Shown piece by piece: positions 5,323-23,671 of a DNA stretch of 37,318 nt. Position numbers and translations under genes: made by a program. This DNA is from Marinitoga litoralis. GTDB taxonomy: Bacteria > Thermotogota > Thermotogae > Petrotogales > Petrotogaceae. Position 1 is the stretch's first letter. Every line of letters starts with the position of its first letter. The notes under the pieces were generated by a model. That model saw only the letters and a program-made list of their open reading frames with translations, made no database searches and was not told the DNA's origin. The stretch spans positions 1-37,318 of the forward strand of contig NZ_JAFBDI010000023.1 in NCBI RefSeq assembly GCF_016908145.1. The letters run 5' to 3'.

Positions 5323-5991
5323 TTGAATATATTAGGAATCGATGCATCAAATAATGGTGTATTAATAGCATTAAAAAAAGGAAACGATATTTTTCATAAA
5401 GAAAGCAAAGAAAAAAACTCTGGTAGTTATATTATTTCCTTAATTGATAATATGTTAAAAGAAAATAATTTAACTATTAAAGATATTGATTTATTTGGGT
5501 GTACCATTGGACCAGGATCTTTCACTGGTATTAGAATATCCATAGCTTCAATTCAAGGATTATTATTTAACTTAAACAAAAAAGTTGTTCCTATAATTAC
5601 AACTGAATTATTATATAATAACTATAAAAAAAATGATAAAATTGCTGTCTTAAAACGTGCTAGAGTTGATGCTGCTTATGTTCATATTTTTGAAAATAAT
5701 AAAAGTATTTTTGGACCAAATTTAATTTCTATTAACAATTTAGAAAATATAATACAAAATGCTTTATTATTGGGTGAAGAAGGTTTGTATTTTAAAGAAA
5801 AATTAAAATTAAAAAATGAATTAATACAATCAAATTTATTGCCAAATACTTTAATTGATTATATAGAAAATAATTCTGATAATGCTGTTTTCCCAAAAGA
5901 TTTAAAAATTCTTTATCTACAAAAACCATTAGCTGTTGAAAATTTTGAAAAGAAAAATAGCATAAAAATAGATGAAAGTACATATAATTAA
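5323..5991 (+). CDS. tsaB: tRNA threonylcarbamoyladenosine biosynthesis protein TsaB
   Basis: Partner of TsaD and TsaE in making N6-threonylcarbamoyladenosine at position 37 of ANN-decoding tRNAs. The ASKHA fold is visible from NILGIDAS at the N-terminus and the family hallmark GPGSFTGIR around residues 61-69. I start it at TTG 5323, directly behind AGGTGGTGAT. An in-frame ATG at 5293 would overlap the divergent gene and add ten residues not typical of the family. That gives 222 residues, normal for TsaB. The stop is immediately followed by a bidirectional terminator shared with csrA. Confidence 0.9.
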   Translation: MNILGIDASNNGVLIALKKGNDIFHKESKEKNSGSYIISLIDNMLKENNLTIKDIDLFGCTIGPGSFTGIRISIASIQGLLFNLNKKVVPIITTELLYNNYKKNDKIAVLKRARVDAAYVHIFENNKSIFGPNLISINNLENIIQNALLLGEEGLYFKEKLKLKNELIQSNLLPNTLIDYIENNSDNAVFPKDLKILYLQKPLAVENFEKKNSIKIDESTYN

Positions 5992-6017
5992 AAATAGCCC
6001 AACGGGCTATTTTTTTT
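5991..6017. terminator. Bidirectional intrinsic terminator between tsaB and csrA
   Basis: AAAATAGCCC (5991-6000), loop AAC and GGGCTATTTT (6004-6013) form a perfect 10-bp stem. It is followed by T's on the plus strand, and by TTTTAATTA after the stem on the minus strand. The csrA stop codon lies inside the stem. It ends tsaB on one side and the long minus-strand tal-to-csrA run on the other. Confidence 0.88.
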
Positions 6018-6240
6018 CAAATAATTTTTTAACTTCTAAAACATCTTTTACTTTTGTCGCAGATAAATTTTCTTCCATTATGCTTTCATACACTTCTTCT
6101 CTATAAATCTTGAAATTCCTTGGTCCTTCAAACCCTAACTTAATAGCATTTCCTTCTATTGACAAAACTTTTATTTTTAATATTTTATCTTCAATCATTA
6201 TTGTAATGCCTTCATTAGGCTTTCTTGATAATACTAACAT
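6007..6240 (-). CDS. csrA: Carbon storage/translation regulator CsrA
   Basis: Small dimeric RNA-binding protein that recognises GGA in hairpin loops and blocks translation; in FliW-containing bacteria its main target is the flagellin mRNA. It begins with the canonical MLVLSRKPNEGI and keeps IKVLSIEGNAIKLGFE and the IYREEVYESI helix region. At 77 residues it is longer than the 61-residue E. coli protein. A C-terminal extension is typical of CsrA proteins that bind FliW. ATG 6240 follows AAAGGGGTG located in the end of fliW, leaving a 1-base gap, so translation is probably coupled. Upstream in-frame codons to 6294 lie inside fliW and are not part of the gene. Confidence 0.95.
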   Translation of the reverse strand: MLVLSRKPNEGITIMIEDKILKIKVLSIEGNAIKLGFEGPRNFKIYREEVYESIMEENLSATKVKDVLEVKKLFEKK

Positions 6241-6241
6241 A

Positions 6242-7219
6242 TCATGCACCCCTTTCGTTATTAGGTGCGGATTGTTCTTGCACAATTTTTTCACTTCTTT
6301 GAATTTCTTTTTTCACATTATGCTTAAGATGATATTCATCATCATCTAATATTAATTGTATTCCCTTATTGTTTATTTTCGAAATCAATACTGGAGCCTT
6401 TAAATTAACTGTAATATTTTCAGGATCACCGTGTGGAATTGTCATAATAGTAAATATTTTTACATCTTCTGGCTCATTAACTTCCAAATATTCAACTAAA
6501 TCTTTTGGCAAATCAAATGAATAATCTACTCTAACTAATAACGGGTCAATAATTGGAAAAGTTATATCTAAATTATCTAATGAAATTAGCCATTGAATAG
6601 GAAATGTTTCTTTGGAAAAATATACGTAAAACTTTTTTAAATTTTCAAATCCTGGTATCCCATTTTCAAAATATATTATATCATTCTCTGCAATCTCAAG
6701 TTCTCCAAATTTAGTATTGTATTTTTGTTTTTTATGTGACATTTTGGATATTTCTTTTATTTGGTTTTCTAAGATTTTTTGGCTTATTAGTATTTCATCT
6801 TTTATACTATGCTTTAAATCATAATTATCTAAAATATATTGTATCCCTCTATTGCTTGTTTTTGAAACAATAATAGGGGCTTTCAAGTTAATCGTAGCAT
6901 CTTCAGGATTATCATGAGGGATAGTCATAATTGAAAAAACCGCTGCTTCATCTTCTGATTTTATACCTAATTTTTCACCTAATTCTTGTGGGATTTTTAC
7001 CTCATAATCAATCTTAACTAATTTAGGCTCTATAATTGGAAAAGATACTAACTCATCTTCCAAAGAAACTAACCACATTATAGGATATGTCTCTTTTAAA
7101 GTAAGGATAATAAACTTTTTTAGATTTTCAAATCCTGGTAATCCCTCTTCAAAATATATTATATCATTATCGTCTACTTCTAAATCACCTATTCTTGTTT
7201 TATACTTTTTCAATGACAT
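6242..7219 (-). CDS. fliW: Tandem-duplicated flagellar assembly factor FliW
   Basis: FliW binds flagellin and also CsrA, releasing CsrA repression when free flagellin is low. A normal FliW has about 150 residues; this one has 325 and contains two complete copies. Copy 1 spans ~5-147 (NDIIYFEEGLPGFENLKKF, FPIIEPKLVKIDY, IMTIPHDNPEDATINLKAP, RGIQYILD, LKHSIKDEI). Copy 2 spans ~165-312 (NDIIYFENGIPGFENLKKF, FPIIDPLLVRVDY, IMTIPHGDPENITVNLKAP, KGIQLILD, LKHNVKKEI). By eye roughly half of aligned residues are identical. Copy 2 even opens with its own Met160-Ser, like an old start. ATG 7219 follows GGAGGAG. It lies between flgL and csrA. Confidence 0.93.
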   Translation of the reverse strand: MSLKKYKTRIGDLEVDDNDIIYFEEGLPGFENLKKFIILTLKETYPIMWLVSLEDELVSFPIIEPKLVKIDYEVKIPQELGEKLGIKSEDEAAVFSIMTIPHDNPEDATINLKAPIIVSKTSNRGIQYILDNYDLKHSIKDEILISQKILENQIKEISKMSHKKQKYNTKFGELEIAENDIIYFENGIPGFENLKKFYVYFSKETFPIQWLISLDNLDITFPIIDPLLVRVDYSFDLPKDLVEYLEVNEPEDVKIFTIMTIPHGDPENITVNLKAPVLISKINNKGIQLILDDDEYHLKHNVKKEIQRSEKIVQEQSAPNNERGA

Positions 7220-7233
7220 GGTTAAACTCCTCC

Positions 7234-8130
7234 CTATCTAATAAAATCCACAAGGGATTGTGGTAAAATTTGTGCTGTCGTTTTTAAAGCTGCTTGCAAT
7301 GCAGTTTGCTCAAGAGTTAAATCGCTAATAGCTTTTGTCAAGTCTGTACCTACTAAATCATTTATAATATCTGTATTATTATCTATTACATTTTCAAACC
7401 TTTTTTCCATTGATTCTAACATATTATCTACACTTCCTACTCTTGCCAAATTAGCATTTACATTATTCAATATACTATCAAGAGAACCTAAATCTCTTTC
7501 AATTGAATCTGTATCTCCACTCTCTATAGAGTTTATTAATCTTTCTAAAATACCAAAAGCTGTTTCACCAGTATCTGTTTTAAAAACATCATATACTGTT
7601 ACACCATACTCTACCTCTATATTTTCTAATGGAAGTTTAGCTCTAACATTTGCTTCTTGAGGGGTATTAATAATTACAGACTCATTTTCTTTTCTCACTG
7701 GTGGAATATCTGTTTTAGCCCCACCAAAAATATACTTACCTCCAATTTGTGTATTTGCTAATTTAAAAAGATGATCTTTTAATTGTTCTAATTCTAAAGC
7801 TATATGATGTCTATCCTCAACTGTTTTTGTATCATCTGCAGCTTGTACTGTTAATTCTTTAATTCTATGGTTTATGGTTTGCATTTCTTGTAATGCAGTA
7901 TCATAATACTTTAATACTGATCTTGTACCTTTAATATCTTCTATATAACCATTTAATATTCTATTCCTACTCATTAAATAACTACTTTTTCCTGCATTTG
8001 AAGGATCATCTGAAGGTTTATTTATTTTTTTACCCGTAGTTATCTGTTCACTTAATTCTTCTCTTTTCAACATAGAATTCCTAATATTTTTTAATGCGTT
8101 ATTTGCTATCATACTTTGGGTAATTCTCAT
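7234..8130 (-). CDS. flgL: Flagellar hook-filament junction protein FlgL (HAP3)
   Basis: Structural protein joining the hook (via FlgK) to the flagellin filament; exported by the flagellar type III system. The N-terminus MRITQSMIANNALKNI and the following LSEQITTGKKINKPSDDPSNAGKS are typical of the FlgL/flagellin D0-D1 helices. The C-terminus (LTKAISDLTLEQTALQAALKTTAQI) is the matching helix. At 298 residues the length is normal. I use ATG 8130 behind GAGGTGAT; an in-frame GTG at 8139 is part of that ribosome site. It follows flgK by 5 bases and precedes fliW by 14. Confidence 0.92.
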   Translation of the reverse strand: MRITQSMIANNALKNIRNSMLKREELSEQITTGKKINKPSDDPSNAGKSSYLMSRNRILNGYIEDIKGTRSVLKYYDTALQEMQTINHRIKELTVQAADDTKTVEDRHHIALELEQLKDHLFKLANTQIGGKYIFGGAKTDIPPVRKENESVIINTPQEANVRAKLPLENIEVEYGVTVYDVFKTDTGETAFGILERLINSIESGDTDSIERDLGSLDSILNNVNANLARVGSVDNMLESMEKRFENVIDNNTDIINDLVGTDLTKAISDLTLEQTALQAALKTTAQILPQSLVDFIR

Positions 8131-8135
8131 ATTAA

Positions 8136-11057
8136 TCACCTCATCAATCCATTAATTATCCTATCTAGCATACCATCAACCACATTAATTATTTTTGCAG
8201 CTGCATTAAATGCTTGCTGATATTTAATCATATTTGCCATTTCTTCATCTAAAGAAACTCCTTTAACACTTTCTCTTTGATTAAAATATTCTGTTTTTAA
8301 GCTATCACTATTAATTTCCATTCTTTTAGCTTTTTCTCCTGTAAGTCCTACTTCTGTTATCATATCAGATATATAATCATCAAAATCATGTCGTCCATCT
8401 GAAAAAAGTTTGGTATTTTTTAACATATAACCTTCTTCCCACAATGTGGATGAATGCTCTCCTGATGGAATTATTGTATCTATATCTCCATCATTATCAG
8501 AATCAATCATTTTACCTAAATCCATAGCTAACATATCTGGATTGTTTAAAAGAAAATCTTTAACTTTTATTTCCTTTGCAATTGGAGTATTCTCATTTAG
8601 TATAAATTTTGATGCATATTTTAATTTATTTTCAAATGTTGTTGAACTATATGTTGGATTTAAAAAAGTAAAATTTTCTGAATATGGTTGAGTGTTGTCT
8701 TCATGTTTCCATAATCCTAATAATTCAAATAATCTTTCTGGACCCTTTATTTCTGCATTTTTTAAATCATAATTTAGTGTTTGATCTGCCTTTAAAACAA
8801 ACCTTCCTGAAGGAGTAAAAAATGCTAAAACCCCTGTATTTGTATTATTTATTTTTTCAGCTAAACTGCTTAAAGTATCCCTATTAAAATCTATTTCTAT
8901 TTTTTTACTTTGAATAGATAAAAAAGAGCCGAAGTCTAATAAATCCATTCTCCATTTTAAATCTGAATCTGATTTTAAATTTAATATAGCAGTTTGATTA
9001 TCAGGAGCCCACCCTTGTGAAACAAGCTTATTCGCTGCAGAATTTTTATCATAATAAAAATTTTCAATTTTTATTGCATTTCCATTTACATTAATCTCAA
9101 TACTATCAACTTTGTCCCAACTATATGTATTACCATCAGCACCTGGTAATATTTCAAACTCTTCTCCATTTTGAACAATTTCAAATTCGCCAGATGAACC
9201 AATTGTACTTCCATTTAGCAAGGATTTCTGAATAGCATTAATATCCTGTGTTCCATCCTTATAATTAATAGTAATGTTTACGTTATCTGTTAGTTGATAA
9301 TCTGATAAATCAAAAGATTTTGTCTTGTATGCATATAATCCAAAAGCATTTTTCAATGAATTTTGTGATGTATCTAAAACTGATAAGTCAACAGAGGAAG
9401 ACTTCATTTCATGAAGCATTCCTTTTGGATCATCTATAATGATATTTTTCATATCATTATATGCATTTTCTGTTGGAACTATATATAATTCATTATTCCT
9501 CACAAAAGCTCTAACTAATTTTAATCCACTATCTGTATTTCCATCACCATCAGAATCGGTATTAATTCTATTAGCAATTTCGTTTAATGTAGTAACCCCT
9601 TGAAGGTTTAGAGTTTCTGAATAGTTTCCAGGACCTTTAAATGTCATTATCCCTTGTGTGTCTGTTGTTGGTATATCTGTCCATTTTAATGCTTGAATAT
9701 CTTTTGAGGGGAATCCAAGCTGTTTAAAAATATTCCTATTAAAATCTATTATTAATCTATTGTCTAATGAAGCCCCACCTTCATTAGCAAAGGTTAATAA
9801 ACCACCATTTTGAGCATTATAATTATAATTAAAGTTTCCTCTGAATTTATTACCAGTTAATATGTTATCTATTGAATCACCAGAATTTAATGTTGCTATA
9901 TAATCTCCATTATCTACAAAACCATTTTCTATATTAATTAATTCACCATTTCCAATATCAAAATTAAGTTTTATATCACTAATTGTATCTTGATTAAATT
10001 TAATATAACTATCTACATAATTCTTTGGTTCACCACTTAAAGATATGCTTCCTGCAATCCTTCTTAACTTATCATTTGCTAAATTCCCAGATTGTATTTC
10101 ATTAAAAAAATTCATTCCCCTTATAGTTCCTGTTAGATCAAAACCTTCTTCATGAATTAAATTTAATGTGTCATAAAATGTTGCAGCAAATTCATTTATT
10201 CTTTTTAACTGATCATTGAGTAAATTATCTCTTAATTCAAACATAGCGCCTAATGAACCTTCTTTTAATCTCAATATGCCATTATCTACAAATAAATGTT
10301 TATTGCCATTTATTTCTTTTAAACTTAATTTTTTGTATATTTCTCCATTTAATAATTCGCGTCCTTTAACAATAATACTTATTTGACCATCACTTTTTTC
10401 TTTAACAATAAAATTAAATTTTTCAGATAATTCATCCAATAAAACATCCCTTTTATCTAACAAGTCATTTGGACTAATATTTTGGTTTTTTAATTCTTTA
10501 ATTTGTCTATTTAATGTAGCTAATTCATCTAATTTTGAATTTATTTCATCAATACTAGATTGAATATCATTATCCATATTATCTTTTACATTTTCTATAT
10601 CATTATATAATGAATTTAATTTATTCGCTAATTCATTTGCCTTATATACTAACTCTCTCTTATTTTCTGGAACCGTTGGTTCAGATAAAATTTTATGTAT
10701 TGATCCCCAAAATTCATCTATTGTTTTTCTGAATCCTTCTTCAGATGGTTCTCCATATAATGATTGAATATAATTCAAATTTGAATTAATAGTTTTCCAA
10801 TATCCATGTTCGGTATTATATTTTCTATACTGTATATCTAAAAATTGATCTCTAACACGTTGTAGAGATTCTATTTTTGTTCCAGTACCTAATTCAAGTC
10901 CTCCATAATTTACTGGAATACTTGTAGACATATTTACTTCTCTTCTTGAATAATTTGGATTATTAACATTAGCAATATTTTGTGAAGTAGCATTCATGGC
11001 TGTTTTACTTGCAAATAATCCGGAAACTCCTACATTCAATGTGTTAAATAATGACAT
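8136..11057 (-). CDS. flgK: Flagellar hook-associated protein FlgK (HAP1), expanded
   Basis: First hook-filament junction protein. The N-terminal hallmark (LNVGVSGLFASKTAMNATSQNIANVNNPNYSRR, residues 7-39) and the C-terminal FlgK helix (SLDEEMANMIKYQQAFNAAAKIINVVD, ~935-961) are intact. The protein is 973 residues, against about 550 in E. coli. The extra material sits between ~330 and ~880 and looks like several beta-rich surface domains. It contains two DxDxDGxxD loops (501-509 and 852-860) of the kind that bind calcium in other extracellular proteins. ATG 11057 follows GAGGTGAT. It lies 9 bases after flgN, the gene for its probable chaperone. Confidence 0.93.
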   Translation of the reverse strand: MSLFNTLNVGVSGLFASKTAMNATSQNIANVNNPNYSRREVNMSTSIPVNYGGLELGTGTKIESLQRVRDQFLDIQYRKYNTEHGYWKTINSNLNYIQSLYGEPSEEGFRKTIDEFWGSIHKILSEPTVPENKRELVYKANELANKLNSLYNDIENVKDNMDNDIQSSIDEINSKLDELATLNRQIKELKNQNISPNDLLDKRDVLLDELSEKFNFIVKEKSDGQISIIVKGRELLNGEIYKKLSLKEINGNKHLFVDNGILRLKEGSLGAMFELRDNLLNDQLKRINEFAATFYDTLNLIHEEGFDLTGTIRGMNFFNEIQSGNLANDKLRRIAGSISLSGEPKNYVDSYIKFNQDTISDIKLNFDIGNGELINIENGFVDNGDYIATLNSGDSIDNILTGNKFRGNFNYNYNAQNGGLLTFANEGGASLDNRLIIDFNRNIFKQLGFPSKDIQALKWTDIPTTDTQGIMTFKGPGNYSETLNLQGVTTLNEIANRINTDSDGDGNTDSGLKLVRAFVRNNELYIVPTENAYNDMKNIIIDDPKGMLHEMKSSSVDLSVLDTSQNSLKNAFGLYAYKTKSFDLSDYQLTDNVNITINYKDGTQDINAIQKSLLNGSTIGSSGEFEIVQNGEEFEILPGADGNTYSWDKVDSIEINVNGNAIKIENFYYDKNSAANKLVSQGWAPDNQTAILNLKSDSDLKWRMDLLDFGSFLSIQSKKIEIDFNRDTLSSLAEKINNTNTGVLAFFTPSGRFVLKADQTLNYDLKNAEIKGPERLFELLGLWKHEDNTQPYSENFTFLNPTYSSTTFENKLKYASKFILNENTPIAKEIKVKDFLLNNPDMLAMDLGKMIDSDNDGDIDTIIPSGEHSSTLWEEGYMLKNTKLFSDGRHDFDDYISDMITEVGLTGEKAKRMEINSDSLKTEYFNQRESVKGVSLDEEMANMIKYQQAFNAAAKIINVVDGMLDRIINGLMR

Positions 11058-11066
11058 GTTATCACC

Positions 11067-11543
11067 TCAGCCTTGCCAGTTTGTTTTGCTTTGATTGACA
11101 GAATTATTATATACACCATTTTTGTTATATACTGGCACATTGTTTTTAGGCTCAATAAATAATCTAATTAATATATCGTTGTATTCTATTCTAGCCTTTA
11201 ATAAATCCTTCAAAACATTGTTTAAAGAAGAAATATCCATTAATTTCTCAGATAAACTTTTTAAGTTTTGAACTAGTTCATAGTCCTTATCTGAAAAATA
11301 CTCGATAAAACTATTTAAATTATTTTTAATATTTTTTTCTAAGGCTATTTTTTCAAAGATTTCTATTCTTTGTTTTTCTTTTTTGGATAGGTTCAAAGCA
11401 TTTTCACTAATCTTTGATACATAAACATTTAATATGTTTATTTCTTCGTTATTAAGTATTCCATTTTTTAATTTTTCCATATAATAAAAAAGATCCACGA
11501 GGATATTTATCTCCTCGTGGATTATTATATTAATATCTGACAT
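11067..11543 (-). CDS. flgN: FlgN-type flagellar export chaperone (probable)
   Basis: A 158-residue, nearly all-helical protein. The pattern (N-terminal EEINILVDLFYYMEKLKNGIL, a KKEKQRIEIFEKI helix, a central LVQNLKSLSEKLMDIS and a final LKARIEYNDILIRLF helix) and the position between flgM and flgK fit FlgN, the chaperone that delivers FlgK and FlgL to the export gate. Sequence conservation is low in this family, so position carries much of the weight. ATG 11543 has its GGAGG inside the last codons of flgM, leaving a 1-base gap. In-frame codons upstream to 11558 lie within flgM. An intrinsic-terminator-like hairpin lies within its first ~20 codons. Confidence 0.75.
   Translation of the reverse strand: MSDINIIIHEEINILVDLFYYMEKLKNGILNNEEINILNVYVSKISENALNLSKKEKQRIEIFEKIALEKNIKNNLNSFIEYFSDKDYELVQNLKSLSEKLMDISSLNNVLKDLLKARIEYNDILIRLFIEPKNNVPVYNKNGVYNNSVNQSKTNWQG
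11485..11522 (-). terminator. Terminator-like hairpin inside the start of flgN
   Basis: On the minus (coding) strand, ATCCACGAGGA (11522-11512) and TCCTCGTGGAT (11503-11493) form a perfect 11-bp stem with an 8-base loop. C plus six T's, then ATTAT, follow directly. This has the full shape of an intrinsic terminator but lies about 20-58 bases into the flgN reading frame. Ribosomes translating flgN would keep it open; untranslated mRNA would let it fold. The structure is seen in the sequence; its activity is inference. Confidence 0.6.
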
Positions 11544-11544
11544 A

Positions 11545-11832
11545 TTAGAAACCTCCAAGCATTTTTTCTGCTATTTTTTCCGCGTCAATTTTGTATAAGC
11601 CTTTTTCTATGGCCTGGCGCATCTCTTCCACGAGGTTATCCCTAATATCAGGGATTTCTTTCCTGGCCATTTCTATATATTTTTTTGAAGAACCGTCAAC
11701 TGATACTTTTACAGGAGAATTGTCCTGTTTTATTATTCTATCTTCTTTGGAGGTTTTCCCTATTTTATTTTCTTTTTTTAACATTTCGTTTATATATTTT
11801 TGATATTCACCATTTAATTTATTTATATCCAT
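11545..11832 (-). CDS. flgM: Anti-sigma-28 factor FlgM
   Basis: Binds sigma-28 and holds late flagellar genes silent until the hook-basal body is finished and FlgM is secreted. It is 95 residues with the family layout: a flexible, polar N-terminal half and a C-terminal sigma-binding region with IPDIRDNLVEEMRQAIEKG, LYKIDAEKIAEKML, matching the FlgM consensus (R..KV..I..AI..G.Y.VD...IA..ML). ATG 11832 follows GGAGGTG. It opens the flgM-flgN-flgK-flgL-fliW-csrA group and is itself preceded by a sigma-28-like promoter, so it should feed back on its own sigma factor. Confidence 0.9.
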   Translation of the reverse strand: MDINKLNGEYQKYINEMLKKENKIGKTSKEDRIIKQDNSPVKVSVDGSSKKYIEMARKEIPDIRDNLVEEMRQAIEKGLYKIDAEKIAEKMLGGF

Positions 11833-22445: not shown

Positions 22446-22473
22446 ATATATCGGTTGAAAAAAATTATTACAT

Positions 22474-22489
22474 TTCACACGGAGGTGGA
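22474..22489 (+). promoter_or_regulatory. CsrA-binding hairpin over the flagellin ribosome site
   Basis: TTCAC (22474-22478) pairs with GTGGA (22485-22489, one G-U pair), presenting the hexaloop ACGGAG (22479-22484). CsrA is known to prefer ANGGAN hexaloops. The GGAGG ribosome site is at 22481-22485, so bound CsrA would cover it. A second GGA lies at 22487-22489. Confidence 0.65.
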
Positions 22490-22492
22490 ATT

Positions 22493-23671
22493 ATGAGAAT
22501 TTATCACAACATGGAAGCTATGAATGCTTGGAGAACACTTACTGGTGTAAAAAGCGATATGGGGAAATCTTTAGAAAAGTTATCCTCAGGTTTAAGAATT
22601 AACAGAGCAGCTGATGATGCAGCAGGTTTGGCTATTTCTGAAAAGATGAGAAACCAAATTAAAGGTTTAGACACTGCGGTTAGAAATGCTCAAGATGCTA
22701 TTTCTATGATTCAAACTGCTGAAGGTGGATTAGATGAAGTTCACTCTATCTTGAAGCGTATGAGAGAATTAGCAGTTCAAGCAACATCAGACACAAACAC
22801 TGATGCAGATAGAGTTCAATTACAAAATGAATTTACTGAATTAAGAGATGAAATCAACAGAATAGCAAAAACAACACAATTTAACACAAAAAATTTATTA
22901 GATGGTTCTTTAAAAGAAACAAGAGATGCTGAAGCTAAATTAGTTTCTCCTGGTTCTGCTCATTTTGCTGTTGGAACATTGGTTTCACAAAATTATACAA
23001 AATCAGGTAATATAATATTAGAAGTGGGACAATTTACTGGATCTTCTGCAAGCACTCTAGAAGTAAAAGCTACTTTTATTACAGCTACAGGAAGTGCTGT
23101 TACTTATGTTGCTTCTACTGCTGGAGCTTTAACTATTGCAGGAACATCAATAACCTGGGATACAAATCAAATTGCATCAATTAATGATTACGGAGGAACT
23201 TTAGCTACTGGAACAGTTGTTGACGGTGGCGCAGCTGTTGTATATGGTCAAGTTACTGCTGGCGCTACTGGTGTTGCACCATTAAACTTCCATATAGGAG
23301 CTAATGAAGGTCAAGTTATTTCTATGGGTTTTGAAAGTATGAAAGCTGATGATTTGGGTTTAACTACTGGAATAAGCATTGACTCTGCATCAAATGCTGA
23401 ATTTGCTATTAGTGCTGTTGATGCTGCTGTATATAGAGTTTCTGCTTTCAGAGCTAAACTTGGTGCTGCTCAAAATAGGCTTGAACATACAGTTAAGAAC
23501 TTAGGTGTTGCTTCTGAAAACTTAACTGCTGCTGAATCACGTATTAGAGATGCTGACATGGCTAAGGTTATGGCTGAATTTACTAAACAACAAATACTCA
23601 TGCAATCAGGTACTGCTATGTTATCTCAATCAAATCAATTACCTCAACAAGTATTACAATTACTAAGATAA
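22493..23671 (+). CDS. fliC: Flagellin
   Basis: Major filament subunit, exported by the flagellar type III system. The conserved N-terminal D0/D1 helices (~1-140) include LEKLSSGLRINRAADDAAGLAISEKMRNQIKG and AVQATSDTNT. The C-terminal D1/D0 helices (~320-392) include ESRIRDADMAKVMAEFTKQQILMQSG and end in QQVLQLLR. Between them lies a ~170-residue variable region, poor in charge and rich in Gly, Ala, Thr and Val, presumably the exposed D2 surface. Length is 392. ATG 22493 follows GGAGGTGGAATT. It is monocistronic with a sigma-28-like promoter, a CsrA hairpin and a strong terminator. Confidence 0.96.
   Translation: MRIYHNMEAMNAWRTLTGVKSDMGKSLEKLSSGLRINRAADDAAGLAISEKMRNQIKGLDTAVRNAQDAISMIQTAEGGLDEVHSILKRMRELAVQATSDTNTDADRVQLQNEFTELRDEINRIAKTTQFNTKNLLDGSLKETRDAEAKLVSPGSAHFAVGTLVSQNYTKSGNIILEVGQFTGSSASTLEVKATFITATGSAVTYVASTAGALTIAGTSITWDTNQIASINDYGGTLATGTVVDGGAAVVYGQVTAGATGVAPLNFHIGANEGQVISMGFESMKADDLGLTTGISIDSASNAEFAISAVDAAVYRVSAFRAKLGAAQNRLEHTVKNLGVASENLTAAESRIRDADMAKVMAEFTKQQILMQSGTAMLSQSNQLPQQVLQLLR

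Follow-up and report, generated by a model that had tools for sequence, protein, structure and literature searches.

Next to csrA, Marinitoga litoralis, a member of a deep-branching bacterial genus, carries a fliW gene whose single open frame runs to 325 residues. Is this FliW doubled on itself, and if so, what would two FliW domains on one chain do in the circuit that balances flagellin, FliW and CsrA? We addressed these questions in the 37,318-nt stretch of contig NZ_JAFBDI010000023.1 that was analysed here in full (the window), and in comparisons with other genomes. The gene and its two domains are placed as follows.

6242–7219, minus strand: fliW, tandem double-domain, 325 aa (single open frame and profile search).
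6743–7219, minus strand: FliW domain 1, residues 1–159, including most of the linking helix 140–161 (PF02623 match at 6806–7159; AlphaFold2 helix).
6242–6742, minus strand: FliW domain 2, residues 160–325 (PF02623 match at 6317–6676); the csrA ribosome-binding site falls within its final codons (ERGA).

The tandem double FliW at 6242–7219 is real. In hmmsearch and hmmscan the protein matches PF02623 twice, each time over profile positions 1–121 of 122, with scores of 126.6 and 128.7 bits against a curated cut-off of 25 bits, and it also passes the NCBIfam FliW equivalog models. Aligned over 152 residues, the two domains share 53% identity (E = 4e-60), a similarity far beyond chance, and the family-invariant residues of FliW (GxPGF, TxNLxAP and others) are present in both copies in 7/7 Marinitoga genomes. 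These results bear out a sequence-only reading of the locus, which had described two full copies in one 325-residue frame, about half identical by eye, with the same motif blocks in each.

At the level of structure, each Marinitoga domain corresponds over its whole length to the family, as represented by FliW of Bacillus subtilis and Geobacillus (PDB 5DMB, 5DMD and 5JAK) and Bacillus halodurans BH3618 (2AJ7); the difference is that Marinitoga has two domains per chain, joined by a helix. An AlphaFold2 model (mean pLDDT 89, pTM 0.56) predicts a continuous helix from domain 1, residues 140–161, after which the opening strand of domain 2 (strand 164) follows almost at once. The alignment behind the model is deep over domain 2 only, so the orientation of the domains is not to be read from it. 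Domain 2 superposes on 5dmd with Z 21.0 and rmsd 1.5 over 138 residues and has the FliW beta fold (VIA-align), and the confident structural matches from Foldseek and VIA-align are FliW structures only; the FliW identity of domain 1 rests on its profile match. The linker is of one length throughout the seven genomes, with a QIK..SK pattern that hardly varies; its helix probably packs in a defined manner rather than serving as a loose tether.

How widespread is the fused pair? Of the Marinitoga genomes, 7/7 (G000 and G039–G044) have an in-frame double fliW of 325–328 aa without stops; one of these, G042, is M. piezophila KA3, with a 13,386-base plasmid 100% identical to NC_016748. Elsewhere in Thermotogota, FliW is present in 71 of 96 genomes and comprises two full domains in 0/71, with one draft genome (G055) holding a stray 32-position FliW fragment on another contig. 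The Bacillota gave the same picture, with FliW in 276 of 398 evenly drawn genomes and a fused pair in 0/276; all 80 of the 80 proteins fetched from named Bacillota genomes are 139–177 aa long. Several Bacillota candidates for a tandem were rejected. Genome G231 (L181 and L185) resembles Marinitoga in having more than one FliW per cell, but as unfused, separate genes on two separate contigs; the two matches of G384 are a single domain interrupted by an insertion; and the long open frames of G329 and G409 hold one domain apiece. With none found elsewhere among the 354 FliW-bearing genomes (the 7 of Marinitoga included), this survey of Thermotogota and Bacillota places the fused pair in Marinitoga alone. 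Helicobacter has two FliW paralogues in one genome, as separate proteins.

A single domain of about 150 residues is no formal criterion of PF02623, yet it is true of every other member examined, and the two-domain Marinitoga proteins depart from it. In the open-access papers searched, FliW was not mentioned together with Marinitoga or together with duplicated domains, and double FliW was nowhere described as the norm in this lineage. The double FliW is a genus-wide architecture of a known regulator, one that had apparently gone undescribed.

The history of the two halves is partly recorded in their tree. The seven N copies form one clade (support 100/97) and the seven C copies another (100/99); the duplication is therefore older than the living Marinitoga species. 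In the best ML tree the two clades are sisters with weak support (61/69), and topologies that place the N or the C copy with the single-copy FliW of the family's other genera could not be rejected either (p = 0.40 and 0.49); in-place duplication is therefore the simplest reading, not a proven one, and likely took place on the Marinitoga stem. Of the earlier proposal of duplication and fusion in place, the fusion stands firmly and the in-place origin is plausible. The same reading had taken Met160-Ser, at the head of copy 2, for a former start codon, and this part did not survive comparison. Residue 160 is M, L, I, L, F, I and F across the seven genomes, so that the methionine of M. litoralis is not conserved in the six others, and no Shine-Dalgarno sequence was found before it. 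Met160 is thus no evidence for a former start, and we rejected it both as a relic and as a working internal start.

Gene conversion between the halves was considered and set aside as weakly supported: N–C identity is 0.512 within a genome and 0.502 in other pairings, with 142 of 5,040 permutations as high, a slight signal driven partly by M. piezophila. A separate observation in M. piezophila (L036) is a pair of substitutions, I to V and H to Q, at equivalent sites of both halves (20/181 and 102/263), which possibly reflect local gene conversion or the constraint of a shared partner.

The surroundings of the gene indicate the system in which the double protein would act. It lies in a flagellar cluster on the minus strand.

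11545–11832, minus strand: flgM, first gene of the cluster (profile match).
11067–11558, minus strand: flgN (profile match).
8136–11057, minus strand: flgK (profile match).
7234–8139, minus strand: flgL, hook-filament junction protein (Flagellin_N and Flagellin_C matches; identity as flgL inferred from its place after flgK).
6007–6240, minus strand: csrA, 77 aa, 1 base past the fliW stop (profile match and junction sequence).
5990–6014, minus strand: intrinsic-terminator-like hairpin after csrA, predicted from sequence as the operon end.

The gene order is thus flgM–flgN–flgK–flgL–fliW–csrA, followed by the terminator-like hairpin; fliW of B. subtilis likewise sits between flgL and csrA. In 7/7 Marinitoga genomes csrA starts 1–2 bases beyond the fliW stop, and its ribosome-binding site lies inside fliW, encoded by a C-terminal ERGA that is invariant in the genus. 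A comparable fliW/csrA overlap in B. subtilis goes with coupled translation (PMC6529632). The M. litoralis genome has one csrA. Ile54 and Asn58 of its product (51 and 55 in B. subtilis) are invariant across Marinitoga, and in other bacteria CsrA requires the equivalent residues to bind FliW (PMC7829508). Separately, CsrA of the family's sampled genera (here 6007–6240; L039–L050) has three extra residues between its first strands, which the other Thermotogota and the Bacillota CsrA aligned lack.

The presumed target of the circuit lies on the opposite strand.

22493–23671, plus strand: flagellin gene (392 aa), which the CsrA/FliW loop presumably targets.
22472–22491, plus strand: candidate CsrA-binding hairpin AUUUCAC-[ACGGAG]-GUGGAAU over the flagellin ribosome-binding site.

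Hairpins with an ANGGAN hexaloop are predicted over the ribosome-binding site in nearly all sampled flagellin leaders, and that of the main flagellin is nearly identical across the main-locus flagellin leaders of the genus. Among 156 starts tested, stems of 7–8 pairs occur at main-locus flagellin genes only; the other matches, including flgL and a few further genes, have stems of 3–4 pairs and may be due to chance. The predicted leader hairpin of a distant M. piezophila flagellin is weaker. Folded alone, the main hairpin is moderately better than shuffled sequences (z = −2.4), so the candidate CsrA hairpin is a prediction resting mainly on conservation.

Marinitoga flagellins fall into two long classes and one short one. 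The short flagellin is divergent, 269–270 aa long (L166:1324–2133, with counterparts L167–L171), has a leader hairpin of the form AGGG-[AGGGAN]-CCCU or similar, and has relatives at 31–47% identity that are widespread in Thermotogota. In one Marinitoga genome it is split into two frames (L172, G041:C7:529882–530689), through a sequencing error or as a pseudogene.

These features resemble the Hag–FliW–CsrA loop of B. subtilis (PMC6529632) in the adjacency of fliW and csrA, with the csrA ribosome-binding site inside fliW, in the FliW-binding residues kept by CsrA and in flagellin leaders with predicted CsrA-type hairpins; they differ from it in the two FliW sites per polypeptide. Because the loop appears intact, it is simplest to suppose that the double protein acts as FliW with two sites per chain. 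We therefore favour, at about even confidence, a natural bivalent FliW working in an ordinary flagellin–FliW–CsrA homeostasis loop, with both domains functional.

Under this account, the tandem duplication of fliW and the fusion of its copies would be older than the split of the present-day Marinitoga species, and neither domain would have lost its function since. CsrA would block flagellin translation at the hairpin over the ribosome-binding site; FliW would relieve this block by binding CsrA when flagellin is scarce, and would itself be titrated away by accumulated flagellin. If csrA translation is still coupled to that of fliW, two FliW sites per polypeptide would roughly double the FliW sites made per CsrA. 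If each half binds a partner, either the flagellin level that titrates FliW would about double, or both sites of a CsrA dimer would be filled by fewer molecules. This mechanism is inferred from the intact surroundings and the signs of selection in the sequences. In B. subtilis, about 9,000 FliW face 8,000 CsrA dimers, near 1:1, the flagellin level oscillates around that of FliW, and a single FliW is enough to silence one CsrA dimer (PMC6529632). Since flagellin there tracks FliW, the flagellin threshold would be expected to rise with doubled FliW sites; since one FliW suffices per dimer, the second site would not be needed for inhibition as such.

Could the two halves instead have divided the work, CsrA falling to one and flagellin to the other, or a different flagellin to each, with the partner switch thereby made intramolecular? 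The copies separated before the genus radiated, as their own well-supported clades attest, and the genus has its two long classes of flagellin and the short one. At ten alignment positions all N copies share one residue and all C copies another. Four of these lie in the tails; the others are T40/F201, Y45/F206, M48/Q209, V58/I219, N104/D265 and A108/I269. In addition, positions 144 and 145 of the N-copy helix are hydrophobic in 7/7 genomes, where the family's other genera have E/K and R, and the change at residue 209 of the C copy, already among the ten, is likewise fixed in the genus. Given these changes at 144, 145 and 209, the halves may not function equally.

Other observations speak against such a division. 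First, purifying selection is acting on both halves, as judged from NG86 pairwise dN/dS values that are similarly low in each (0.05–0.20 over every pair, most of them with nearly saturated dS). Second, neither half varies in its FxxGxPGF and TxNLxAP blocks across the seven genomes. Flagellin protects residues 3–11, 22–28 and 95–115 of Bacillus FliW from exchange (PMC6070490), and the GxPGF and TxNLxAP blocks fall in the protected segments at about 22–28 and 95–115, in a numbering that is approximate and was transferred via Parageobacillus FliW. That both halves keep these segments is a mild argument against a clean split of one half per partner. Third, several flagellins, the short one included, are also found in relatives with a single FliW, so the number of flagellins fails to explain the doubling. 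We regard a divided FliW as doubtful, though with a real chance of being right.

Two more specific roles for domain 2 were considered and rejected: that of a partner for the 269-aa short flagellin, as short flagellins are widespread in single-FliW Thermotogota, and that of a replacement for a missing FliS chaperone, as FliS is present once in 21/21 family genomes.

A double FliW might also grip one CsrA dimer at each of its two FliW sites and so gain avidity. The dimer does take two FliW molecules (PMC7829508, PMC6529632), and the constant linker length, the invariant linker residues in 7/7 genomes and the hydrophobic N-copy positions 144–145 suggest a fixed arrangement of the domains. The two sites lie on opposite sides of the dimer, however (PMC7829508), and the short helix 140–161, running into strand 164, may not reach between them, the orientation in the model being uncertain at its pTM. 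We consider this grip unlikely.

Slightly less probable again is that one half does the work of FliW and the other has been kept to support or stabilise the protein, for example against heat. The C-terminal helix of the N half has changed relative to single-copy relatives; yet both halves are full length at 127–129 bits, keep the family-invariant residues and evolve under strong purifying selection. Hotter members of the phylum also retain a single FliW: Thermotogota such as Thermotoga maritima grow at higher temperatures. Finally, a sequencing or assembly error that deleted a stop between two genes, the caveat attached to the original observation, has virtually no chance of being the explanation and was rejected, as seven separate genomes, single-contig ones and M. 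piezophila KA3 among them, agree in the frame and the linker length.

Beyond the bivalent FliW that we favour, a further reading, less likely than not, is that two rigidly joined, non-equivalent domains bring CsrA together with flagellin, or engage the CsrA dimer on both faces, on one molecule. If true, what is elsewhere a switch of partners between separate complexes would become a single regulatory device with two sites. More generally, the flagellin–FliW–CsrA loop is thought to run on near-exact counting, and Marinitoga would be a natural experiment on that counting. Its FliW offers a ready-made, obligately bivalent form with which to ask what sets the flagellin threshold: the number of sites, avidity or simultaneous binding.
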